A stretch of DNA of 59,068 bases from Frigidibacter sp. (GTDB lineage Bacteria; Pseudomonadota; Alphaproteobacteria; Rhodobacterales; Rhodobacteraceae). A model generated the notes under the pieces. It saw nothing but the letters and a program-made list of their open reading frames with translations, searched no databases and was not told where the DNA came from. Shown here piece after piece: positions 39,523 to 58,524 of this stretch; positions within the stretch are counted from its first letter, which is position 1, and each line of letters starts with the position of its first letter. The DNA lies in the NCBI RefSeq assembly GCF_030695035.1, contig NZ_JAUYTT010000016.1:1-59068 (forward strand), in the 5' to 3' direction. Position numbers and translations under genes: made by a program.

Positions 39523-40944
39523 CTAGGCTTTGTCGCGGGCGTTGGCGCGCCGGGCATCGGCTGACAGCAAGGCGAGAACAGCGGCCAGGCGTGAGGTCTG
39601 TTCGCGGATATCCGGAATTGCGGTGATCTCCCAGAACGCTGCGCGAGAGACGGGGCCGATGGCGAACAGTTTGCCCGAGGCCCAGTCATCCTTGCCAAGC
39701 AAGCGACAGGATGACCCGACATCGAGCCCGATGTTCAGAGGATCCACCCGGGCGCTTCCGCGGCGCAGCAGATCGGCGATGAGCGGCGAGGCATGGCGCG
39801 CAGGGTCGCGCCGGATGCCGCGACAGTCGAAGATCAGGGTCGCTGGAAGGATCAGCGGAGTTGCGGACCCTGAGGGCAGGATGCGGGCACCCGCCTGTCC
39901 ACCGGGCAGACGCTCGGCGCGCAGAAAGCTGCCCCGCATTACCCGCATCTGACCCGTAGCCATCGCTTGCTGAAGTGTCGCCTCGGACGCGGGCGGAATG
40001 CGATGACGATGGACGTCCCACCAGGTCGCCGCGTGGCGCAGGAAACGGGATCGCTCTGCCAGTGGCAGGTTTCTCCAGATCGCCTTGACGTGGGGCCTGA
40101 TGCCATCCACGGCATCCCGCCAGGTGCCGCCTTGCTGTTCGGCCTGTCTGGCAAGACCGCGGGCCCAACCAATCAGCACTGTCATCGGTGCTCCCAGCGG
40201 AATCTCCGCCAAGGTCAGCGCCAACGGTTTGGTCGGCCGGTGGGTTCGGGGTAACTGGCCGCGGCGCGACACGCAGAGGATCTCGCCGCGATGGCCTGCC
40301 TTCAGCAAGGTGATGACCCGGTCCACCATCGACAGGCCGGACCCGATGATAACGACGCGGGCGCCCCTGTCAAAATCATCCGGATCGTCCCATGCACCAA
40401 GCAGCAGGCCTTGGGGATCCGGCGCTTCGAGCACATGGCCGGTGGCGAGAACCGCGATATCGCCGATCACGCTTTGCCCGTCGCCCAGATGCACCACGAC
40501 ACCCGCCGGGGTCTCTTGCAGGCGCAAGGCGGTCTGGTGGACGAACCTGAGGCGCTGCGGCCCGGCTCCCTGCAGCCACGGGGAGATGAGGCTGGACAGG
40601 TAGCTGCCATAGGTCGATCTGCTGACGAAACACTGGCCGGTCACGCCCCGACCGTCCGACCGTGTCCGCAGCCAATTCAGGAAATGCCCCGGGTCATTCG
40701 GAAACGCGCTCATGTTGTGGGCGCGGGTGTTGAGCAGGTGGTCCGGATCATCGGTGGAATAGGCCACCCCGCGCCCGGGTGCATGCCGCCCCTCGATGAT
40801 CGTGACCCGGAAGGCGACATCTTGCCGCGAGAGCAGGTGCGTGGCCATCAGCACACCGCTGGCCCCGCCGCCGATGACCACGACATGGGGGCCATGCAGC
40901 TTGGGGCTTGCTGAGGGGCTCTGGATAACCTGGTGATCCATCAT
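39523..40944 (-). CDS. FAD/NAD(P)-binding protein (YdhS-like)
   Basis: A 473-residue flavoprotein-like enzyme of the NAD-binding-9/YdhS type. It has an N-terminal dinucleotide motif VVVIGGGASGVLMATHL, the family's GRGVAYSTDDPDHLLNTRA and a second Rossmann motif VVIIGSGLSMVD. There is no membrane segment. Substrate and role are unknown; relatives act on small organic compounds. Its ATG overlaps the stop of a 52-aa membrane peptide gene (ATGA), and it is the last gene of a four-gene coupled operon led by an alpha/beta hydrolase. Confidence 0.85.
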   Translation of the reverse strand: MMDHQVIQSPSASPKLHGPHVVVIGGGASGVLMATHLLSRQDVAFRVTIIEGRHAPGRGVAYSTDDPDHLLNTRAHNMSAFPNDPGHFLNWLRTRSDGRGVTGQCFVSRSTYGSYLSSLISPWLQGAGPQRLRFVHQTALRLQETPAGVVVHLGDGQSVIGDIAVLATGHVLEAPDPQGLLLGAWDDPDDFDRGARVVIIGSGLSMVDRVITLLKAGHRGEILCVSRRGQLPRTHRPTKPLALTLAEIPLGAPMTVLIGWARGLARQAEQQGGTWRDAVDGIRPHVKAIWRNLPLAERSRFLRHAATWWDVHRHRIPPASEATLQQAMATGQMRVMRGSFLRAERLPGGQAGARILPSGSATPLILPATLIFDCRGIRRDPARHASPLIADLLRRGSARVDPLNIGLDVGSSCRLLGKDDWASGKLFAIGPVSRAAFWEITAIPDIREQTSRLAAVLALLSADARRANARDKA

Positions 40945-41099
40945 CCGAGGACCAGCATGGAGAAGACCGCTGCGAGCCCAAGTGCAGCCGCGAACAGCGC
41001 TGCCATTGCCGGGCCCGTCATGTCACCGTGTCCTTCATTTGCCAGCGAGGCTGCGAATATCTCGGCGAAGTCCTGGTCGAAGCGTCCGTCGATCATCAT
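40941..41099 (-). CDS. Small single-span membrane protein, 52 aa
   Basis: A short gene with AGGAG 7 bases before an ATGATG start. The N-terminal ~28 residues are polar and acidic (DGRFDQDFAEIFAASLANEG). A single hydrophobic helix follows (MAALFAAALGLAAVFSMLVL) right to the C-terminus, so a C-tail-anchored membrane peptide is likely. It overlaps the flavoprotein start by four bases, which strongly supports expression. No family is recognised. It may tether the soluble flavoprotein to the membrane. Confidence 0.7.
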   Translation of the reverse strand: MMIDGRFDQDFAEIFAASLANEGHGDMTGPAMAALFAAALGLAAVFSMLVLG

Positions 41100-41135
41100 G
41101 GTCGGCTCCTGTTGGGACTGGGGGTCTGGGGGCTG

Positions 41136-41291
41136 TCAGTCAAAGGTCCGGTGCGCGGACGCGTCAAAGGCCGACTTGACCGCATCGGGCGCGATCACCA
41201 CGGCGATGACTGCGAGATACGCCGCGGCGAACAGCGCCAGTGCGGCGTAACCGGACAGGCCGGAATCGGGGCGGCGGAACAGATGTTTCAC
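41136..41291 (-). CDS. Small single-span membrane protein, 51 aa
   Basis: A GTG-started 51-residue protein whose first codon overlaps the hydrolase stop (GTGA); the GGAGG for it lies inside the hydrolase 3' end. It has a basic N-terminus (MKHLFRRPDS), a central hydrophobic helix (YAALALFAAAYLAVIAVVIA) and a ~20-residue polar C-terminus. The layout predicts N-in, C-out. It is followed by the second membrane peptide gene 36 bp on. No family is recognised. The pairing of two different tiny membrane proteins resembles small subunits of a membrane complex. Confidence 0.7.
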   Translation of the reverse strand: MKHLFRRPDSGLSGYAALALFAAAYLAVIAVVIAPDAVKSAFDASAHRTFD

Positions 41292-41857
41292 AGGGCGAAC
41301 CTCCGAGCTGGCCTTTGCTGGGACAGCGATCCGGCAGAGCGCCCGAGCAGGTTATCCCGCAGGGCCTTCCCGCTGGCCCACGGACCGAAGCCCGAGGCGA
41401 CGTTGATATGGCCGGCGTTCCCAAGATCGACGAGGTTGCTGCCCCATGCCTGCGTTAGGTGTCTTGCGCGATCGAAGTGCATCCACGGGTCATTGCGGCT
41501 GGCGACTACCGTGGCCGGGATGTCGAGCCGAAGCTCGGGTATGGGGCCGAAATGGCCGATTCGGTCATTGCCCCGGGTCTCGGCCGGGGCCACCAGCAAC
41601 GCAGCCCGCACGCGAAGGTGGGGCCAGGCCGCCAGCAACCGGGCGATCAGCACGGCTCCTAGCGAGTGGCCGACAAGGACGCAGTCGGGGTGGCGCAGGA
41701 TCATCGAGGCCAGCTCGATTTCCCACACCGCGGGAACCGGATGCGCCGGATCCGCCAGATCGACCATCAGCGCGCCGTGCTCGGTTGCGGCCCACCAGTG
41801 CTGCCAATGCGGCGCCGGGGATCCGTCCAGGCCGGGGACGATCAATGTCTTGGTCAT
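41288..41857 (-). CDS. RBBP9/YdeN-type alpha/beta hydrolase
   Basis: A 189-residue serine hydrolase of the RBBP9/YdeN family. It begins with TLIVPGLDGSPAPHWQHWW, has the nucleophile motif GHSLGA, an Asp in ASRNDPW and the catalytic His in GNAGHINV. Substrates of bacterial members are unknown. The start at 41857 has AAGGAAC upstream. It is first in the coupled operon with two tiny membrane proteins and a flavoprotein. A motif shared with the Rrf2 and sulfate-transporter promoters lies 34 bp upstream of its ATG. Confidence 0.88.
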   Translation of the reverse strand: MTKTLIVPGLDGSPAPHWQHWWAATEHGALMVDLADPAHPVPAVWEIELASMILRHPDCVLVGHSLGAVLIARLLAAWPHLRVRAALLVAPAETRGNDRIGHFGPIPELRLDIPATVVASRNDPWMHFDRARHLTQAWGSNLVDLGNAGHINVASGFGPWASGKALRDNLLGRSAGSLSQQRPARRFAL

Positions 41858-41890
41858 GTCCGTGTTCCTTCGACTCGTGTCCCACATAAT

Positions 41891-41912
41891 CTAGCAAGAT
41901 TGTCGTGATTAA
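41891..41912. promoter_or_regulatory. Candidate Rrf2-regulon motif upstream of the hydrolase operon
   Basis: This 22-bp block matches the motif at 43163-43184 (opposite strand) in 15 of 22 positions, including ATTGTCGTG. It shares the core TCGTG and following TTA with the copy at 42492. It lies in the upstream region of the leftward hydrolase operon. Weaker than the other two copies; functional status is inferred. Confidence 0.4.
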
Positions 41913-41963
41913 TGCTTCCAAAGATCAGGTGCAGAAGGGAAGGCCCTTCTCTCTGGTGCGCCT

Positions 41964-42437
41964 TCAGCGCGAGTTTGTGTCCACGGGATAGGCCGTCGTG
42001 AACTTCATCCGCTCCATCGCGAAGTAGCTGGTGACGTTCTTGATCGGCACGGCATCTGTCAGGCGTTTGTAGAGCCTGTCGAAGCCTGCCATGTCGGACA
42101 CGGCGATGCGCAGCAGGTAGTCCATCTCTCCGGCCATGCGGTAGGCTTCCATGATCTCGGGGATGGTTTGCGTGGCGGTGGCGAAGGCCTCGCGCCACTC
42201 TGCCGAGTGGTCGGGCGCCTCGATGCCGACAAAGACCGTGAGGCCGAAGCCCAGCCTTGCCGGGTCGGCGAGGGCAACCCGGCCGGTGAGCACGCCCGCT
42301 GCCTCCAGCTTCTGAATCCGCTTCCAGCAGGGGGTCTGGGACAGGCCGGCCTTGTCGGCGATCTGGGCAACGGGCTGGGTGGCGTCGCGCATCAGCTCTG
42401 CGAGGATCTTGCGGTCTATGAGGTCAAGCTCTGTCAT
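41964..42437 (-). CDS. Lrp/AsnC-family transcriptional regulator
   Basis: A 157-residue regulator with an N-terminal winged helix-turn-helix (LDLIDRKILAELMRDATQPV; then ADKAGLSQTPCWKRIQKLE) and a C-terminal RAM effector domain (LLRIAVSDMAGFDRLYKRL). Such proteins sense amino acids or related metabolites. It is divergent from the Rrf2 gene and followed by the hydrolase operon. The proximity suggests, but does not prove, a role in sulfur amino acid control. Confidence 0.92.
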   Translation of the reverse strand: MTELDLIDRKILAELMRDATQPVAQIADKAGLSQTPCWKRIQKLEAAGVLTGRVALADPARLGFGLTVFVGIEAPDHSAEWREAFATATQTIPEIMEAYRMAGEMDYLLRIAVSDMAGFDRLYKRLTDAVPIKNVTSYFAMERMKFTTAYPVDTNSR

Positions 42438-42491
42438 CTGCTCAAGGCTCCGTGCGGGGCGGGAGGGCTGTCCTTAGAATGCACCAAAGCG

Positions 42492-42513
42492 CGCTAAAGT
42501 CTATCGTGTTTAT
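42492..42513. promoter_or_regulatory. Candidate Rrf2 operator upstream of the Rrf2 gene
   Basis: The 22-bp sequence starts CGCTAAA and ends TCGTGTTTAT. It matches the reverse complement of 43163-43184 in 18 of 22 positions, with the end blocks of 7 and 10 bases identical. A second TCGTG follows directly (TCGTGTATTTACG). It lies in the divergent lrp/rrf2 region and would allow autoregulation. Confidence 0.6.
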
Positions 42514-42624
42514 CGTGTATTTACGAGCCGGCGTTTTACCGCTGTTTTGAAGGGTGCGCGCCGGCCGACGGGCCCAGACAATCACGACATTGATTCTCGC
42601 CATTCGGTCGCGTATCGCTGGGGG

Positions 42625-43089
42625 ATGATCACGCAGAAGATGAAATACGCCCTCAAGGCGCTTCTGGCCCTCGCGGATGAGGCGGCGCAGGAGCAGCCGA
42701 GGGCGTTGACCATCGAGGAGATCGCCAAGCGGTCGGGCACGCCCAAGCGGTTCCTGGAGCACATCCTGCTCGAGGTGCGCAATGCGGGCGTGATCGCCTC
42801 GACCCGCGGGCGTTCGGGCGGCTACAGCCTGATCAAGCCGCCGGCCGAGGTGTCGATCTCGGCGCTGCTGCGCACGATAGATGGGCCGATTGCGCCGCTG
42901 CCCTGCCTCTCGCGCAGTGCCTATCAGCGCTGCGAGGATTGCACGGATGAGGCAAGCTGCCGGATCCGCAAGATCTTTGCCGAGGTGTTCTGGTCCTATC
43001 TGGTGCTGATCGACTCGCTGACCCTGGCCGACATGCTGCGGTCGGACGCGGTGGCGGAGCAGGTCATGGGCGAGGCGGCGCAAGCCTAA
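42625..43089 (+). CDS. Rrf2-family transcriptional regulator with clustered cysteines
   Basis: A 154-residue Rrf2 regulator. It has a winged HTH (MKYALKALLALADEA; IAKRSGTPKRFLEHILLEVR, recognition helix) and the family segment RGRSGGYSLIKPPAEVS. Four cysteines, C94, C103, C106 and C112, could bind an Fe-S cluster or sense redox or sulfur state. The start at 42625 gives the family N-terminus. It lies upstream of a sulfate importer operon, and a shared motif is present upstream of both. In CymR/CysR-like regulators this arrangement goes with control of sulfur assimilation; that role here is inference. Confidence 0.9.
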   Translation: MITQKMKYALKALLALADEAAQEQPRALTIEEIAKRSGTPKRFLEHILLEVRNAGVIASTRGRSGGYSLIKPPAEVSISALLRTIDGPIAPLPCLSRSAYQRCEDCTDEASCRIRKIFAEVFWSYLVLIDSLTLADMLRSDAVAEQVMGEAAQA

Positions 43090-43162
43090 TTAGCTGATAA
43101 TTATCGGTTTTTCTACCGCAGGACAGGCGTGACAGCCTCCTGCGGCCGGAGAATTTTCTTCT

Positions 43163-43184
43163 ATAAACACGACAATATTTAGCG
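43163..43184. promoter_or_regulatory. Candidate Rrf2 operator upstream of the first sulfate importer
   Basis: This 22-bp block (plus strand begins ATAAACACGAC, ends TTTAGCG) is, in reverse, an 18/22 match to 42492-42513. It lies 90 bp before the first gene of the sulfate operon in a visibly A/T-rich promoter region. Nearby are GATAATTATC (43097-43106) and CGACA/TGTCG (about 43206-43220) palindromes. Confidence 0.6.
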
Positions 43185-43273
43185 TGAATTTGCTTTTGCA
43201 ATACTCGACAAGTCGTGTCGTTATTACGGTCATGGCAGGGACGGATCCTTGCCGGCACCGAAGGAGAACGACG

Positions 43274-43525
43274 ATGACCGCTTTCGCCTTTCACCCTTTC
43301 GCGCAGGCCGGGCTGGCGATGCCTGTTGCCGCCCCCCCGATGCCGCGTGCCTGCGCCGTCCGCCTGATCGACCGTCGCACCGGCGCCGCGCATCGGATCA
43401 ACGGCCGGCCGCTGACGCTGTTCACCCGCCGCCCGCAGGAGGCTGCGGCCGAGCTGCTGGAGGGGCGCGATGCCTCGCTCTGGGAGGTGCGGATCGATCC
43501 CATTGAGCCGGAGGTGCGGCAATGA
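43274..43525 (+). CDS. Small conserved-looking protein ahead of sulfate importer, 83 aa
   Basis: An 83-residue soluble protein with AAGGAG 7 bases before its ATG, the strongest ribosome-binding site in this operon. The first ~25 residues are hydrophobic/Pro-rich; the rest ([40 protein letters not shown]) looks like a small alpha/beta domain. No family recognised. It is the first gene after the putative Rrf2 operator, so it is probably part of the sulfate regulon. Its stop overlaps an upstream start of the next reading frame (ATGA at 43522). Confidence 0.65.
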
Positions 43526-43623
43526 CCCCCTTTGGCCACCCCCCGATGCTCCACGGCCTCGTGCCGTTGCTTCCCCGCTTTCTGGCCGCCCGCACGGCGC
43601 GCCCCGCTTCCACGGAGACTACC

Positions 43624-44739
43624 ATGCAGACCACGATTTTGCTGTCCGGCAACGCCACGGCCCAGGGCCTGAAGGTCGCCGAGCTGACCGATGGCCGCGT
43701 CACCATCGAGACGGGGCGCGAGCGGGTGACCGGCTGGCCGGTGCCGGCCTTTGCCCGGGGCGCGCTGCCCGTGCTGGCGCTGGCGCTGACCCTTGGTGCC
43801 GCACCGGCCCCGGTTCAGGCAGAAACGCTGCTGAATGTCAGCTATGACCCGACGCGCGAGCTGTATCGCGAGGTGAACGAGGCCTTTGCCGACTGGTGGG
43901 TGGCGCAGGGCAATGAGGCGCCAATCCTCGAGACCTCGCATGGCGGGTCGGGGAGTCAGGCGCGCGCGGTGATCGACGGGCTTGAGGCGCAGGTGGTGAC
44001 GCTGGCGCTGGCCTCGGACATCGACAGGATCGCACAGGCGGGCAAGCTGCCGGCGGGTTGGCAGGGCACGCTGCCGCACAACTCCTCGCCCTATGCCTCG
44101 ACGATCGTGTTCCTGGTGCGGGAAGGGAACCCCAAGGGGCTGGCCGACTGGGGAGATCTGGTGGCGGAGGGGGTGGAGGTGATCACGCCCAACCCGAAAA
44201 CCTCAGGCGGGGCACGGTGGAACTACCTTGCCGCCTGGGCCTGGGCCGAGAAGAACGGGCAGGACCCGCAGGAGTTCGTCGGCAAGCTCTACAAGAACGT
44301 GCCGGTGCTGGACAGCGGCGCGCGCGGGTCCACCACCACCTTCGCGCAGCGCGGGATCGGCGATGTACTGCTGGCCTGGGAGAATGAGGCGTATCTGGCG
44401 CTGAAGGAGCTGGGGGAGGATCAGTTCGACATCGTGGTGCCCTCGGTCTCGGTGCTGGCCGAACCGCCGGTGGCGCTGGTGGAGGGGAACATCAAGTCGG
44501 GTGCGCAGCGCGAGTTGGCGACGGCGTATCTGAACTTCCTCTACACGCCCGAAGGGCAGGCGCTGGCCTTCAAGCACTTTTACCGGGCGTGGGATGCTTC
44601 GGCCGCCGCGCCGGAAGATGTCGCCCGCTTCCCCGATCTGGAGCTGGTGGACATCGCCAGCTTCGGCGGTTGGGCAAAGGTGCAGCCCGAGCATTTCGGC
44701 GATGGCGGCATCTTCGACCAGATCTACGTGGCGAAGTGA
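43624..44739 (+). CDS. Sulfate/thiosulfate-binding periplasmic protein, system 1
   Basis: A 371-residue solute-binding protein of the CysP/Sbp family. The binding motifs [12 protein letters not shown] and NPKTSGGAR are clear, and the C-terminus ends FDQIYVAK. Oddly, from the ATG at 43624 (GGAG upstream) there are ~45 residues before the hydrophobic signal core ([21 protein letters not shown]). From the ATGA-coupled start at 43522 there are ~80. Normal members begin with the signal. Either the true start is later, or a small N-terminal segment has been fused on. First transporter gene of operon 1. Confidence 0.9.
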
Positions 44740-44747
44740 GGCTGGCG

Positions 44748-45584
44748 ATGGGCAGGCCCCTTGTTCACCGCTCCCCCATGCCCGGCCTCGGCCTCAGCAT
44801 GGGGATCACCCTGACGATGCTGTCGCTCGTCGTGCTGCTGCCCATCGGCGCCCTTCTTCTGAAGGGCGCCAGCTACGGGATCGAGGGGATCTGGGAGACA
44901 GTCAACCGCGAGAGGGTCTGGGCGGCGCTGTTCCTGTCGTTCCGCCTGTCGCTGTTCGCGGCGGTGTTCAACCTGATCTTCGGGGTGCTGCTGGCCTGGG
45001 TGCTGGTGCGCTACCGCTTCCCCGGCAGGCGGATTCTGGACGCCTCCGTGGACCTGCCCTTCGCGCTGCCGACCGCAGTGGCGGGCATCGCACTGACCGC
45101 GCTTTATGCCCCGAACGGGGCCTTTGGCTCGCTCGCGGCCAGCATCGGTTGGAAGATCGCCTATAGCCAATGGGGCATCCTCCTGGCGCTGGTCTTCGTG
45201 GGACTGCCCTTCGTCACCCGCACCGTGCAGCCGGTGGTGGAGGAGATCGAGCGCGAGGTCGAGGAGGCATCCGCCACGCTTGGCGCCACGCGCCTGCACA
45301 CCCTGCGCCATGTGATCGCGCCGATGCTGGCCCCGGCAGCGCTGACCGGCTTCGCGCTGGCGCTGGCGCGGGCGGTGGGGGAATATGGGTCGGTCATCTT
45401 CATCGCCGGGAACATCCCGCTGGTGACCGAGATCGCGCCGCTGCTGATCGTGATCCAGCTGGAAGAGTTCAACTATGACGCCGCCGCCGCCATCGGCATC
45501 GCCATGCTGCTGATCAGCTTTGCGATGCTGCTGGTGATCAACCTGATCCAGGTCTGGAGCCGCCGGAGGATTGGCTATGTCTGA
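44748..45584 (+). CDS. cysT: Sulfate ABC transporter permease CysT, system 1
   Basis: A 278-residue inner-membrane permease with six hydrophobic segments and the ABC EAA-loop (EVEEASATLGATRLHTLRHV). DLPFALPTAVAGIALTALY is the CysT hallmark. It pairs with CysW to form the channel for sulfate or thiosulfate. It begins 9 bp after the binding-protein stop with GAGG in between and overlaps cysW by 8 bases. Confidence 0.93.
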   Translation: MGRPLVHRSPMPGLGLSMGITLTMLSLVVLLPIGALLLKGASYGIEGIWETVNRERVWAALFLSFRLSLFAAVFNLIFGVLLAWVLVRYRFPGRRILDASVDLPFALPTAVAGIALTALYAPNGAFGSLAASIGWKIAYSQWGILLALVFVGLPFVTRTVQPVVEEIEREVEEASATLGATRLHTLRHVIAPMLAPAALTGFALALARAVGEYGSVIFIAGNIPLVTEIAPLLIVIQLEEFNYDAAAAIGIAMLLISFAMLLVINLIQVWSRRRIGYV

Positions 45585-46437
45585 TATCGCACAGGTCCGT
45601 TTCCGGTCCGCCACCGAGGAAACCCCGCTGGCGCGCCGGGCGCTGATCGCCGTCGCCGTCCTTGGCCTTGGCATCCTTGTCGCCGCGCCGCTGATCGTGG
45701 TCTTCGCCGAGGCGCTGGCGCAGGGATGGGCTGCCGCTGTTGCCTCGCTGGGAAACCGCGACGCGCTGTCGGCGATAAGGCTGACGCTGACCATCGCCGG
45801 CATCTCGGTGCCGCTGACCGCCGGTTTCGGCATCGCCGCAGCCTGGTTCATCACCAAGTTCGACTTCCGCGGCAAGGCCTTCCTGATCACGCTGATCGAC
45901 CTTCCATTCTCGGTCAGCCCGGTGGTCGCGGGCCTGTGCATCGTGCTGATGTTCGGCACCAACAGCCTTGTCGGCGGCTGGCTGGTGGCCAGCGGTTATC
46001 CCATCGTCTTCGCGCTGCCGGGCATCGTGCTGGCGACGATGTTCGTGACCTTCCCCTTCGTCGCGCGCGAGCTGATCCCGGTGATGATCGAGCAGGGCCG
46101 CGCCGAGGAGGAGGCGGCGCTGACGCTTGGCGCCTCGGGCTGGCGGGTGTTCTGGACGGTGACGCTGCCGAACATCCGGTGGGCGCTGCTTTATGGCGTG
46201 CTGCTGTGCAACGCCCGCGCGATGGGGGAGTTCGGGGCGGTTGCCGTCGTGTCGGGCAAGATCCGCGGCCAGACCGCAACCATGCCGATCACCATCGAGA
46301 TGTTCTACAACGAATACCTCTCGGTCGCGGCCTTCAGCCTGGCCGCCGTGCTGACCCTGCTCGCCCTCGTCACCCTGCTGCTGAAAACCGCGCTGGAGAT
46401 CCGCCATGCGGACCAGCTTGCCGCCCTGCATCCTTAG
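45577..46437 (+). CDS. cysW: Sulfate ABC transporter permease CysW, system 1
   Basis: A 286-residue permease, partner of CysT. It has the family's [18 protein letters not shown], the EAA loop ([19 protein letters not shown]) and [20 protein letters not shown] near the end. GGAGGA precedes the ATG at 45577 by 6 bases and sits inside cysT, coupling the two. It is followed 10 bp later by cysA. Confidence 0.93.
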
Positions 46438-47179: not shown

Positions 47180-47227
47180 CCCCGGCAGGGGATCTGCGCG
47201 TGTGAAAAGAACCCCCTCTCGGCGACT

Positions 47228-47316
47228 CTGTGCGGGGAAGCACAGTGTTCCGCCGCGCCGTTCGGAGGACGGACGGCAGCCGGGTGGCCCGGGCGCGAAC
47301 GGAACAACGTTCGCGC
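47228..47316. other. Hairpins between the two sulfate importers
   Basis: CTGTGC/GCACAG (47228-47233 and 47240-47245) and GCGCGAACG/CGTTCGCGC (47293-47301 and 47308-47316) are perfect stems in the 227-bp gap between cysA of system 1 and cysA of system 2. They may end transcript 1 or fold in the leader of transcript 2. No T run follows either. No copy of the TCGTG motif is evident in this gap. Confidence 0.5.
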
Positions 47317-47406
47317 TCGTAGTCAAGACTGGCTTGGTACCCGGCATTTTCGGATTGAATCCGCCCCGATTTGGAACCATTTCCCGGGGGCAACAGGAAT
47401 CCCGCC

Positions 47407-48504
47407 ATGACCATCGCCATCTCATCGCTGACCAAGAGCTTCGGGCCCACACATGTCCTGCGCGGCATCGACCTTGGCATCGAGGCCGGGGAGCTGGTGG
47501 CGCTGCTGGGCCCCTCGGGTTCGGGCAAGACGACGCTGCTGAAGATCATCGCCGGGCTCGATTGGCCGGACGCGGGCGCACTGGCGGTGGACGGGCAGGA
47601 CTGGCTGGCCCTGCCGGCGCAGAAGCGGCGCATCGGGTTCGTGTTCCAGAGCTATGCCCTGTTCCCGCACATGACCGTGCGCGACAACATCGCCTTCGGT
47701 CTGACCGTGCGGCCCCGGGCCGAGCGCCCCGGCAAGTCTGTCATCGCGGCGCGGGTCGATCAGCTCCTCGGCCTGCTGCAGATCCCGCATCTGGCGGACC
47801 GCTTTCCCACCCAGCTGTCGGGTGGCCAGCGCCAGCGCGTGGCGCTGGGGCGGGCGTTGGCCATCGAGCCGTCGGTGCTGCTGCTGGACGAGCCCTTCGG
47901 CGCGCTGGATGCCGCCATCCGCCGCGACCTGCGGCGCTGGTTGCGCGAGGTGCATGAGGCGACGAAATCCACCACCATCTTCGTCACGCACGATCAGGAA
48001 GAGGCTTTCGAGATGGCCGACCGCGTGGTGGTGATGGGCGAGGGGCGGATCGAGCAGATCGGCACCGCCGACCAGATCCATGACCATCCTGCCTCGCCTT
48101 TCGTCGCCCGCTTCATGGGCGCGGTGGTCGAACTGCCAGTGGCCCTGCGCGCCGGCCGGGTCGAGGCTGCGGGGCTGGACGCAAGCGCGCTGGAGCGCCG
48201 CGCCATGGCCGATGGTCCGGCCCGGCTGTTCCTGCGCCCCGACGCCATCGCGCTGGAGCCGGATGCGGCCAGCCCGTGGGTCCTGTCGCACAAGGCCAGC
48301 AACGGCGCCGTCATCCGCGCCACGCTGCGCCGCGAGGACGGCACGGAACTGCCCGTCGACCTGCTGCGCCATTCCGCGCCCGAGGTCACCCTCGGCGCTG
48401 CCTATCGTCTGCGTCCGCTGACCGGCGCAGTCTTCTCCGCTGAGGGTGCCGCGCAGAGCGGCGGCCCAAGCCCGCTTCCCCTTCTCAAGGAACACCGCAA
48501 ATGA
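47407..48504 (+). CDS. cysA: Sulfate ABC transporter ATPase CysA, system 2, full length
   Basis: A 365-residue ATPase with Walker [36 protein letters not shown] and a C-terminal TOBE-like domain (~240-350; LFLRPDAIALEPDAAS). The long form differs from the truncated cysA of system 1. It is the first gene of operon 2 and overlaps the binding-protein ATG by four bases. The gene order here (A-SBP-T-W) is a permutation of system 1 (SBP-T-W-A). Confidence 0.93.
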   Translation: MTIAISSLTKSFGPTHVLRGIDLGIEAGELVALLGPSGSGKTTLLKIIAGLDWPDAGALAVDGQDWLALPAQKRRIGFVFQSYALFPHMTVRDNIAFGLTVRPRAERPGKSVIAARVDQLLGLLQIPHLADRFPTQLSGGQRQRVALGRALAIEPSVLLLDEPFGALDAAIRRDLRRWLREVHEATKSTTIFVTHDQEEAFEMADRVVVMGEGRIEQIGTADQIHDHPASPFVARFMGAVVELPVALRAGRVEAAGLDASALERRAMADGPARLFLRPDAIALEPDAASPWVLSHKASNGAVIRATLRREDGTELPVDLLRHSAPEVTLGAAYRLRPLTGAVFSAEGAAQSGGPSPLPLLKEHRK

Positions 48505-49502
48505 AACACGGATTGATCAAGGCGACCTTTCTGGCCGTCGGCCTCGGCGCCGCTGCCCCGGCCGCCGCGCAGGACAGCCTGCTGAACGTCAGCTACGACA
48601 TCGCGCGCGAGCTGTTCGAGGCGCTGAACCCGGCCTTCGTGGCGACCTGGAAGGCCGAGAGCGGCCGCGATGTGACCATCGACCAGAGTCACGGCGGATC
48701 GTCGCGCCAGGCACGCGCCATTCTGGAAGGCCTCGCCGCCGATGTGGTGACCTTCAATCAGGAGACCGACATTGACGTGCTGGCCGAGGGCGGCCTTGTC
48801 GATCCGGCATGGCGCGACGCGCTGCCCAACGGCGCCTCGCCCTATTACTCGCTGCCCGCCTTCCTGGTGCGCGAGGGCAACCCCAAGAACATTCAGGACT
48901 GGTCTGATCTGGCGCGCGAAGACGTGGCGCCGGTCTTCCCGAACCCGAAAACCAGCGGCAATGCGCGCTACACCTATCTGGCCGCCTATGCCTATGGGCT
49001 GGAGCAGAACAACGGCGACGAGGCCAAGGCGCAGGAGTTCGTGAAGGCGATCCTGTCCTCGGTTCCGGTCTTCGACACTGGCGGGCGCGCCGCGACCCAG
49101 ACCTTTGCCGAACGCGAGATCGGCGACGTTCTGGTGACCTTCGAGGCGGAAACCGGCCAGATCGCCGCGGAATATGCCGACAAGGGCTTTGTCCGCGTGA
49201 CGCCGAGCCTGTCGCTGTTTGCCGCCTTCCCGGTGGCGGTGGTGACCGAGAATGCCGAGAAGAACGGCACGGCCGAGGTGGCGACCGCCTATCTCGAATG
49301 GCTCTATTCGCCCGAGGCGCAGGAGATCCTGGCGCAGCATGACTACCGGGTGACCGATGCCGAGGTGGCGGCGAAATACGCGGCGGACTTCCCCGAGGTC
49401 CGGCTGGTCACGGTGGATGAGGTCTTCGGCGGCTGGGATGCCGTGCGCGAAGAGCATCTGGCCGATGGCGCCATTCTGGATCAGGTCTTCGTCAACCAAT
49501 GA
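48501..49502 (+). CDS. Sulfate/thiosulfate-binding periplasmic protein, system 2
   Basis: A 333-residue solute-binding protein with a normal signal peptide (ATFLAVGLGAAAPAAAQ) and the family motifs SHGGSSRQARAI and NPKTSGNAR. It is the same family as the system 1 protein but well diverged and lacking its N-terminal extension, so the two may differ in preference (sulfate versus thiosulfate or another oxyanion). ATGA overlaps join it to cysA before and cysT after. Confidence 0.93.
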   Translation: MKHGLIKATFLAVGLGAAAPAAAQDSLLNVSYDIARELFEALNPAFVATWKAESGRDVTIDQSHGGSSRQARAILEGLAADVVTFNQETDIDVLAEGGLVDPAWRDALPNGASPYYSLPAFLVREGNPKNIQDWSDLAREDVAPVFPNPKTSGNARYTYLAAYAYGLEQNNGDEAKAQEFVKAILSSVPVFDTGGRAATQTFAEREIGDVLVTFEAETGQIAAEYADKGFVRVTPSLSLFAAFPVAVVTENAEKNGTAEVATAYLEWLYSPEAQEILAQHDYRVTDAEVAAKYAADFPEVRLVTVDEVFGGWDAVREEHLADGAILDQVFVNQ

Positions 49503-57527: not shown

Positions 57528-58490
57528 ATGCGGCAGGACGAGCGGGATCTGGCCTTTGCGGGCGGCGGGCTGGACCGTGCCGCCCATCTGCGCGGCGATG
57601 TGGCGACGCTGCTTGCGGACCCCGCAACGCTGATGCTGCCATTCTGGCGGGGCAAGCCATTGCTGGTGGATGTTGCGACGGGCGGCCGGCGGCTGGGGCT
57701 GCTGGCACCCGGGCATCCGGCGCTGGCCGGCGGCGGGGAACCGCTGTTGCTGGGGCTGGCGAACGGGGCCGCGCGGTTTGCCGTGGACATCTCGGGCTGG
57801 GAGCCGGTGGGCGAGGTCGCGATGCCCGGCAGCTTTTTCGACCCGACCGAGCAGCGCCACCCGGACCTGCCGGACGACCACCGCTTTGCCGAGCTGCGCG
57901 GCGTGATGCTGGCGCTGGACCCGCTGGAGGCGGAACTGGCGGCGACGGGGCGGTCCTTGCTGGCCTGGCATGGCACGCACGGGTTCTGCTCGGCCTGTGG
58001 CGCCGCATCCGAGGTGGCGAAGGCCGGATGGCAGCGCAGCTGCCCCGCCTGCGCCGCGCAGCATTTCCCGCGCACCGACCCGGTGGTGATCATGCTGGTG
58101 ACGCGCGGCAACCGCACGCTGATCGGCCGCAGCCCGGGCTGGCCCGAGGGGATGTATTCCTGCCTTGCCGGTTTCATGGAACCCGGCGAGACGATGGAGG
58201 CCGCGGTGCGGCGCGAGGTGGCTGAGGAGACGGGCGTGCAGGTCGGGGCGGTGCGCTTCGTCGCCAGCCAGCCCTGGCCCTTCCCCGCCTCGCTGATGCT
58301 GGGCTGCCGGGGCGAGGCGCTGACCGAAGAGATGGTGCTCGATCCGGTCGAGATCGAGGATGCAATCTGGCTGACGCGCGAGGAGATGGCGGACGTCTTC
58401 GCCGGTTCGCACCCTGTGGTGCGGCCGCCGCGGCGGGGGGCGATTGCGGCGCATCTTCTGCGCATGTGGCTTGCAGACCGTCTGGATTGA
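57528..58490 (+). CDS. nudC: NAD+ diphosphatase (NADH pyrophosphatase)
   Basis: A 320-residue Nudix hydrolase that cleaves NAD(H) to NMN(H) and AMP and removes NAD caps from RNA. It has a zinc ribbon (CSACGAASEVAKAGWQRSC then AC), a perfect Nudix box (GFMEPGETMEAAVRREVAEE, then TG) and the NADH-specific SQPWPFPASLM. The start at 57528 (GGAG upstream) gives normal length. It is divergent from the CpdB-like gene. Confidence 0.94.
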   Translation: MRQDERDLAFAGGGLDRAAHLRGDVATLLADPATLMLPFWRGKPLLVDVATGGRRLGLLAPGHPALAGGGEPLLLGLANGAARFAVDISGWEPVGEVAMPGSFFDPTEQRHPDLPDDHRFAELRGVMLALDPLEAELAATGRSLLAWHGTHGFCSACGAASEVAKAGWQRSCPACAAQHFPRTDPVVIMLVTRGNRTLIGRSPGWPEGMYSCLAGFMEPGETMEAAVRREVAEETGVQVGAVRFVASQPWPFPASLMLGCRGEALTEEMVLDPVEIEDAIWLTREEMADVFAGSHPVVRPPRRGAIAAHLLRMWLADRLD

Positions 58491-58524
58491 CGCCAGAAAT
58501 GATCGGAAATTCGAAGGGGCAGGC

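Follow-up and report, generated by a model that had tools for sequence, protein, structure and literature searches.

Gene content of the locus

The 59,068-nucleotide stretch of Frigidibacter sp. DNA analyzed here (positions 1 to 59,068 of contig NZ_JAUYTT010000016.1, assembly GCF_030695035.1; hereafter the window) contains a sulfate ATP-binding cassette (ABC) importer operon preceded by a gene of the Rrf2 family and, on the opposite strand, a gene of the Lrp/AsnC family and an operon for a serine hydrolase, two small membrane-type peptides and a flavoprotein. A 25-bp dyad recurs in the promoter regions of these genes; its conservation among relatives strongly supports shared regulation, and the locus is probably a compact sulfur-acquisition regulon under the control of the Rrf2 protein. 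The genes and probable promoters are as follows (profile scores in bits; ORF, open reading frame).

39523-40944, minus strand: flavoprotein, a flavin adenine dinucleotide (FAD)/NAD(P)-binding protein of 473 amino acids, last gene of the hydrolase operon (Pfam NAD_binding_9, 139.7 against a cut-off of 21.8)
40941-41099, minus strand: mp1, small membrane-type peptide of 52 amino acids (ORF)
41136-41291, minus strand: mp2, small membrane-type peptide of 51 amino acids with a GTG start (ORF)
41288-41857, minus strand: hyd, RBBP9/YdeN-type serine hydrolase encoded at the start of the leftward operon (Pfam Ser_hydrolase, 156.3 against 22)
41964-42437, minus strand: lrp, complete gene of an Lrp/AsnC-family regulator (Pfam PF13404, HTH_AsnC-type, 58.8 against 27; PF01037, AsnC_trans_reg, 68.1 against 25)
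42590-42618, plus strand: probable sigma-70 promoter of rrf2, TTGATT-N17-TATCGC, read by eye
42625-43089, plus strand: rrf2, Rrf2-family regulator of 154 amino acids (Pfam Rrf2, PF02082, 112.8 against 30; TIGR00738, 94.9 against 73.3)
43196-43225, plus strand: probable cysP promoter, TTGCAA-N18-GTTATT, read by eye and similar in relatives
43274-43525, plus strand: small ORF of 83 amino acids that opens the cys operon; many relatives have a homologue between their rrf2 and cysP genes
43522-44739, plus strand: cysP1, sulfate ABC transporter substrate-binding protein (NCBIfam NF008022, 409.3 against 288)
44748-45584, plus strand: cysT1, permease (TIGR02139, 372.1 against 246.1)
45577-46437, plus strand: cysW1, permease (ORF; 77% identity to the annotated CysW of Cereibacter (C.) sphaeroides plasmid pA)
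46406-47179, plus strand: cysA1, ATPase (TIGR00968, 342.4 against 342.75, just short of the cut-off)

The first importer is thus of the CysPTWA type, with both CysP and CysT above the curated cut-offs. The true start of cysP1 may be the ATG at 43624, as the protein seems to have a long extension ahead of its signal peptide. A second sulfate importer (cysA2-cysP2, 47180-49502), which starts from 47410, lies directly downstream of the first. The start of hyd was set at ATG-ACC-AAG, and the same start is kept in relatives. Neither mp1 nor mp2 has a match in Pfam or NCBIfam; homologues of mp1 adjoin hyd in some relatives, and those of mp2 adjoin hyd or lrp. The 83-residue ORF likewise gave no Pfam or NCBIfam match. 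The Lrp/AsnC protein scores below the cut-off of the NCBIfam Lrp equivalog NF008370 (95.9 versus 233), and its closest solved structure by sequence is 3i4p. The rrf2 promoter ends 6 bp upstream of the ATG, so that the rrf2 mRNA is probably leaderless.

A 25-bp dyad in four promoter regions

Intergenic regions of relatives define the conserved unit as a 25-bp dyad, AATCACGAC-N7-GTCGTGATT, with a 9+7+9 layout and degenerate half-sites; in all five site classes the halves are better conserved than the 7-bp centre. Using a scoring matrix that was built from 91 cysP-promoter copies, the window's own two included, and that ignores the 7-bp centre, we identified five dyads in four promoter regions within 1.3 kb, two at cysP and single copies at lrp, at rrf2 and at the hydrolase operon (listed without strand).

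41886-41910: O-hyd, ATAATCTAGCAAGATTGTCGTGATT, 14.6 bits, upstream of the hydrolase gene
42496-42520: O-lrp, AAAGTCTATCGTGTTTATCGTGTAT, 11.9 bits, between the divergent lrp and rrf2 genes
42580-42604: O-rrf2, AATCACGACATTGATTCTCGCCATT, 16.4 bits, over the rrf2 -35 box
43165-43189: distal O-cys, AAACACGACAATATTTAGCGTGAAT, 24.7 bits, in the cysP promoter
43201-43225: proximal O-cys, ATACTCGACAAGTCGTGTCGTTATT, 28.2 bits, from the end of the cysP -35 box through the -10 box

The proximal cysP operator is the highest-scoring dyad in the window. The shared motif exceeds chance in the window: six positions reach at least 11.5 bits, two of them more than 24, and 60 dinucleotide shuffles of the window gave a mean of 0.15 sites of at least 11.5 bits and none of at least 20. 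The sixth of these positions, the dyad-like sequence at 58486-58510 (12.3 bits), lies near the window end.

An earlier, sequence-only reading of this DNA had proposed a 22-bp motif with a TCGTG core at three positions. All three 22-mers are found there, starting at 42492, 43163 and 41891, and the matches of 18/22 between the first two and of 15/22 between the second and third hold, the first and third agreeing at just 13/22 positions. The 22-mer itself is not the conserved unit, its place being taken by the 25-bp dyad, and the CGCTAAA of the rrf2-side copy is not kept there in relatives. That copy was 9 bp out of register because the left TCGTG repeat had been used, the right one being conserved in relatives. 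Two further sites had been missed, one in the cysP promoter (43201-43225) and one over the rrf2 -35 box (42580-42604), and the gene layout had overlooked the complete lrp gene, which is flanked by two of the three noted sites.

Conservation of the dyad among relatives

For comparison we used loci L006-L085, the best 80 of 219 loci encoding a relative of the Rrf2 protein (L001-L005 are excluded from the locus counts). A sulfate operon begins within 700 bp after rrf2 in 52 of these 80 loci, a close lrp lies on the opposite strand in 53, and the hydrolase gene stands beside lrp or rrf2 in 29. Fuscovulum blasticum DSM 2131 (L081) is an example of a cultured strain with the hydrolase gene. The candidate operator is retained in the orthologous promoters, as would be expected of the regulon that the sequence-only reading proposed. 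In particular, all 52 cysP promoters have a site of at least 14 bits, partly by construction because cysP promoters formed the training set of the matrix. At the lower threshold of 7.5 bits, sites precede lrp in 48/53 loci, hyd in 26/29 and rrf2 in 27 of the 52 cys-linked loci, none of these classes having been used in training the matrix. In 64/80 relatives a TTGATT hexamer lies no more than 60 bp upstream of rrf2.

The tandem arrangement at cysP is conserved as well. Among the 50 loci having the proximal copy, the distal copy was picked by the pattern in 43, and the spacing between the two centres is exactly 36 bp in 41 of these 43. As a control, the matrix columns were permuted: one of 600 permuted matrices attains the hyd count of 26/29 (with 37/53 for lrp), ten attain at least 15/29 hyd loci, and none attains the lrp count; the maxima in a separate run of 200 permutations were 26 for hyd and 37 for lrp. 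Taken as comparative sequence evidence, these data strongly support shared regulation of sulfate import and the hydrolase/flavoprotein operon through a dyad that also stands at the two regulator genes.

Genome-wide search and scattered modules

A sequence-only covariance model was built from 59 sites of relatives, none of them from the window; the sites were chosen by hand, 29 of 88 listed references being left out, including shifted rrf2-promoter matches and doubtful sites. In the 4.3-Mb genome this model gave six matches at E<=10, which correspond to five sites, all at 41886-43227 of the window. Nothing outside the locus was found at this threshold, with 150 of 191 first-look candidates scored, so that weak sites could be missed. 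A search for a wider regulon with the consensus allowing at most two mismatches was rejected: it gave 34 places in the genome compared with 38 in a reversed control, and the matches beyond the two recovered operators are thus at noise level.

The sites also accompany the hydrolase and flavoprotein genes where these are located elsewhere. In genome G064 the hydrolase-flavoprotein module (L159/L181) has a 21.5-bit site and adjoins neither rrf2 nor lrp; in G047 the flavoprotein gene (L137) with a 20.1-bit site lies about 2 Mb from the cys operon, rrf2 again being elsewhere; in G036 (L167) genes for the flavoprotein and a flavin mononucleotide (FMN) reductase flank two sites apart from the rrf2-cys locus; and in G011 the hydrolase gene (L184) with a 12.0-bit site is on a contig other than that of cys. 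The regulation is therefore separable from mere neighbourhood, and the link that had been suggested between sulfate import and the hydrolase/flavoprotein operon is strongly supported, sites being conserved at both and occurring also in several genomes in which the modules are apart. In total, 12 hydrolase homologues were found in 11 of 29 genomes, and a site precedes 10 of the 12. No site was found upstream of the second hydrolase homologue of the Frigidibacter genome itself (C4:546232, 51% identity). In addition, away from hyd and the flavoprotein gene, locus L129 of G001 has an 18.7-bit site (1502-1526) just upstream of a weak mp2 homologue (35% over 37 residues).

Sulfur-related targets in relatives

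Other genes behind the sites in relatives point to the role of the regulon. An FMN reductase of the MsuE type follows sites in L006, L021, L046, L065, L123 and L138/L167, the L021 protein scoring 234.1 bits against a cut-off of 212.5. In L123 the next gene encodes an NtaA/DmoA-type monooxygenase, and sites precede a gene for a MetQ/NlpA-like protein in L125 and for a weakly assigned DASS-type anion symporter in L136; these three proteins are below the curated cut-offs. The presence of MsuE-type FMN reductases among the targets therefore indicates a likely role in sulfur acquisition, which lends indirect support to the sulfur role previously ascribed to the hydrolase/flavoprotein module. SfnB was considered as a direct target and rejected: the site in L118 lies after the SfnB-family gene (580.6 versus 430.9) and precedes the gene for a flavoprotein paralogue (32% identity), and SfnB is thus a neighbour and not a shown target.

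The flavoprotein has no relative among PDB sequences at E<=0.01. An AlphaFold model based on six sequences (from an alignment that excludes the L082 protein because of an internal stop) has a mean predicted local distance difference test score of 75.6. Its best Foldseek match is the aspartate N-hydroxylase FzmM (TMq 0.66), followed by the ornithine hydroxylase PvdA (TMq 0.57-0.58); the predicted fold is shared with these enzymes, but the sequence identity is only 18% and 13-14%, respectively. The model suggests a flavin monooxygenase, the match being to a broad fold class. The hydrolase resembles DUF1234/YdeN hydrolases, with 3bdv (DUF1234) as the closest solved structure by sequence. Given the predicted N-hydroxylating-monooxygenase-like fold of the flavoprotein, the most likely role of the module is to release sulfur from an organic compound by oxidation and hydrolysis.

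The Rrf2 protein and known regulators of its superfamily

The protein belongs to the Rrf2 superfamily, both PF02082 and TIGR00738 being above their cut-offs, and its closest solved relative by sequence is the BadM/Rrf2 protein 4cic. The four cysteines C94, C103, C106 and C112, rightly pointed out in the sequence-only reading, are invariant in 89/89 aligned Rrf2 proteins, and are also kept in a nine-sequence alignment with members down to 57% identity. Their spacing is C94-X8-C103-X2-C106-X5-C112.

Among the characterized members, CymR, the master regulator of cysteine metabolism in Bacillus and Staphylococcus, has the same Rrf2 fold (phmmer matches 2y75 and 3t8r) and likely shares a role in sulfur supply, the candidate operators described here being located at sulfur genes. 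However, the window protein fails the NCBIfam CymR equivalog (59.6 versus 195) and differs in being alphaproteobacterial and having four invariant cysteines. The CymR operator also differs in sequence from the dyad, and CymR acts in complex with the O-acetylserine thiol-lyase CysK. The window protein is likewise below the NCBIfam equivalog cut-offs for IscR (59.5 versus 207.55), RirA (45 versus 193) and NsrR (42.3 versus 182) of the same superfamily. Its cysteines lie in the same region as those of IscR, RirA and NsrR, but the cysteine spacing is different, and those regulators target iron or nitric oxide genes, whereas the candidate targets here are sulfate-import and organosulfur genes.

According to one account, B. 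subtilis CymR binds no Fe-S (iron-sulfur) cluster, an Rrf2-type operator consists of two recognition sites around a central 7-bp region (23 bp in total for the ScNsrR site), and these central 7 bp can be changed with no clear loss of NsrR binding (PMC9338935). The 9+7+9 layout of the dyad with its degenerate centre fits this description of Rrf2-type operators. In the same bacterial group, the IscR regulon of Rhodobacter sphaeroides is likewise controlled by an Rrf2-family repressor with operators overlapping or near the -35 and -10 boxes; its operator, the Iron-Rhodo-box, is a 19-bp palindrome preceding genes for iron uptake and storage, and that IscR ligates its cluster with a single cysteine (PMC4618611). 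A CymR/Rrf2 regulator of sulfur metabolism outside Firmicutes has likewise been proposed in Rhodococcus, IGTS8_peg394, which is actinobacterial; in the accessible part of that source its immediate neighbourhood is without sulfur genes and no operator is given (PMC8557817).

Which protein binds the dyad

The sequence-only reading had proposed the Rrf2 protein as a possible regulator. We likewise favour it as the probable binder of the dyad, with the Lrp/AsnC protein as a live alternative. The distribution of the motif was examined in 394 genomes of the family (covariance model at E<=0.1 with stricter filters and at most 18 candidates scored per genome), a setting that misses real sites: the matrix alone recovered the tandem sites of G304 (27.8 and 24.2 bits). 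In counts uncorrected for relatedness, the motif was detected in 30/37 genomes with both a close Rrf2 and a close Lrp, in 6/10 with Rrf2 only, in 0/1 with Lrp only and in 10/346 with neither, that is, in 36/47 Rrf2-positive versus 10/347 Rrf2-negative genomes. That sites are retained in genomes lacking an Lrp orthologue makes the Rrf2 protein the more likely of the two to bind them.

In a search of ten Rrf2-positive genomes, the best Lrp matches in the Rrf2-only genomes are at most 44% identical and paralogue-like, except for a broken 53% match in G356; G036, Rrf2-only by the cut-off, actually has a 57% Lrp. Tandem sites 36 bp apart are located beside rrf2 in G304 (by the matrix) and before cysP in G356, the incomplete genome G034 has tandem sites at cysP, and G316 and G297 have a single site each upstream of rrf2. 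In the G304 locus (L164, 4418-4729) the tandem 36-bp operators precede a short ORF, and no cysP recognized by tblastn is located there. The conserved mini-protein before CysP at which this ORF hinted was rejected, the pattern being found in L028 and L164 only, among loci other than L001-L005 and L086-L156. On plasmid pA of C. sphaeroides 2.4.1, rrf2 (DQL45_RS20505; 74% identity over the aligned part) has a 14.1-bit site and adjoins neither lrp nor cysP, three genes lying between it and the latter; two sites (10.6 and 22.4) are present in the cysP promoter, and lrp (DQL45_RS20545) ends that operon.

The main rival is the Lrp/AsnC protein itself (41964-42437), which would bind the dyad as an autoregulated sensor, perhaps of cysteine, and control cysP, lrp and the hydrolase operon, rrf2 being only a target or neighbour. 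We regard this as unlikely but as a serious rival, because lrp promoters bear the site more reliably (48/53 divergent loci) than cys-linked rrf2 promoters (27/52). Furthermore, lrp adjoins sites in L108, L111, L113, L114 and L143, where rrf2 is elsewhere, and ends the cysPTWA operon in L162, L169 and L170 as it does in C. sphaeroides; in G003 and G009, which have Rrf2, a close Lrp is absent and no motif match reaches E<=1. Lrp-type dyads would also be compatible with the 15-bp core CGAC-N7-GTCG, and cysteine-responsive Lrp proteins, DecR and CyuR, exist. On the other hand, sites occur with no Lrp orthologue (best matches of at most 44%) in tandem beside rrf2 in G304, at the hydrolase-flavoprotein module of G064 and in the incomplete G034, the tandem sites of G356 are kept with its only Lrp match broken, and rrf2 promoter sites have no adjoining lrp in C. 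sphaeroides, G316 and G297. None of the 46 motif-containing genomes has Lrp in the absence of Rrf2, the sample including only one Lrp-only genome. A third, unlinked regulator (for example, of the LysR type) that binds the dyad, with Rrf2 and Lrp as members of its regulon, might explain the matches in the ten genomes with no close Rrf2, one of which, in G213, scores 29.3 bits. This explanation is improbable, since the motif is concentrated in Rrf2-positive genomes, the best E-values for eight of these ten matches are 0.04-0.1, and the G213 site is by genes that, read by eye, have no evident sulfur link. That site (L160, 4949-4973) is a near-perfect dyad in a genome with no close Rrf2 or Lrp. 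Finally, ordinary promoter conservation or chance would require no shared operator at all, and some sites do overlap core elements (TTGCAA, TTGATT) that are conserved in their own right. It is very improbable, given that one matrix matches unlinked promoters, that the tandem spacing is fixed at 36 bp, that all genome-wide model matches fall in one locus, and that of the 600 permuted matrices one attains the hyd count and none the lrp count.

Several observations weigh against control of the dyads by Rrf2 as a regulon of the kind proposed, in addition to the superior record of the lrp promoters, the absence of a match in G003 and G009, and the matches in the ten Rrf2-negative genomes. The rrf2 promoter has a site in 1/20 loci where neither cys nor lrp adjoins, and none was found within the 9 kb of G104 sequence surrounding rrf2. 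Conversely, a 15.7-bit site occurs in G276 together with an Lrp (52%) and a flavoprotein (31%) but with no close Rrf2. No site precedes a hydrolase homologue in G310. In the window, the matrix scan found no dyad in the 230 bp ahead of the start of the second importer; a direct link to the dyads is thus restricted to the first importer, which narrows the link to sulfate import made in the sequence-only reading. Lastly, G218, the one same-genus genome sampled, has no Rrf2, Lrp or motif match at the cut-offs used, and the circuit may thus not be universal within the genus.

Proposed mechanism and implications

With the Rrf2 protein as the favoured regulator, a homodimer would bind the dyad. When sulfur is sufficient, Rrf2 would repress transcription by occupying the core promoter of cysP, the -35 box of rrf2 and the promoter of the hydrolase operon; at cysP the proximal operator would lie over the spacer between the -35 and -10 boxes, with the distal operator 36 bp upstream. 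Under sulfur shortage Rrf2 would release the DNA, the signal probably being sensed at C94-X8-C103-X2-C106-X5-C112, either as an Fe-S cluster or as a thiol/persulfide switch. Expression of the sulfate importer, the Lrp-type regulator and the hydrolase/membrane-peptide/flavoprotein module would then rise, with Lrp as a target that may in turn act as a second-layer regulator.

In the open-access literature, as judged from titles and abstract openings, we found no account of how Rhodobacteraceae regulate the importer and its linked genes, and a prior description is possible; in a C. sphaeroides network paper, the word 'sulfate' is absent from the main text (PMC4344238). The candidate operator is well defined, the target list is short and a related locus is present in the model strain C. 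sphaeroides 2.4.1, which makes the question directly testable. The regulon would also provide the first functional lead, sulfur acquisition, for the uncharacterised flavoprotein/serine-hydrolase module. More tentatively, and with considerable doubt as to the whole, many Rhodobacteraceae including C. sphaeroides may gauge sulfur by a four-cysteine Rrf2 protein whose own Fe-S or persulfide status is the signal and which controls an Lrp-type partner in a two-layer circuit; this circuit might switch on sulfate import and, where present, a new organosulfur-scavenging pathway in which a flavin monooxygenase and a serine hydrolase are joined by two very small membrane proteins.

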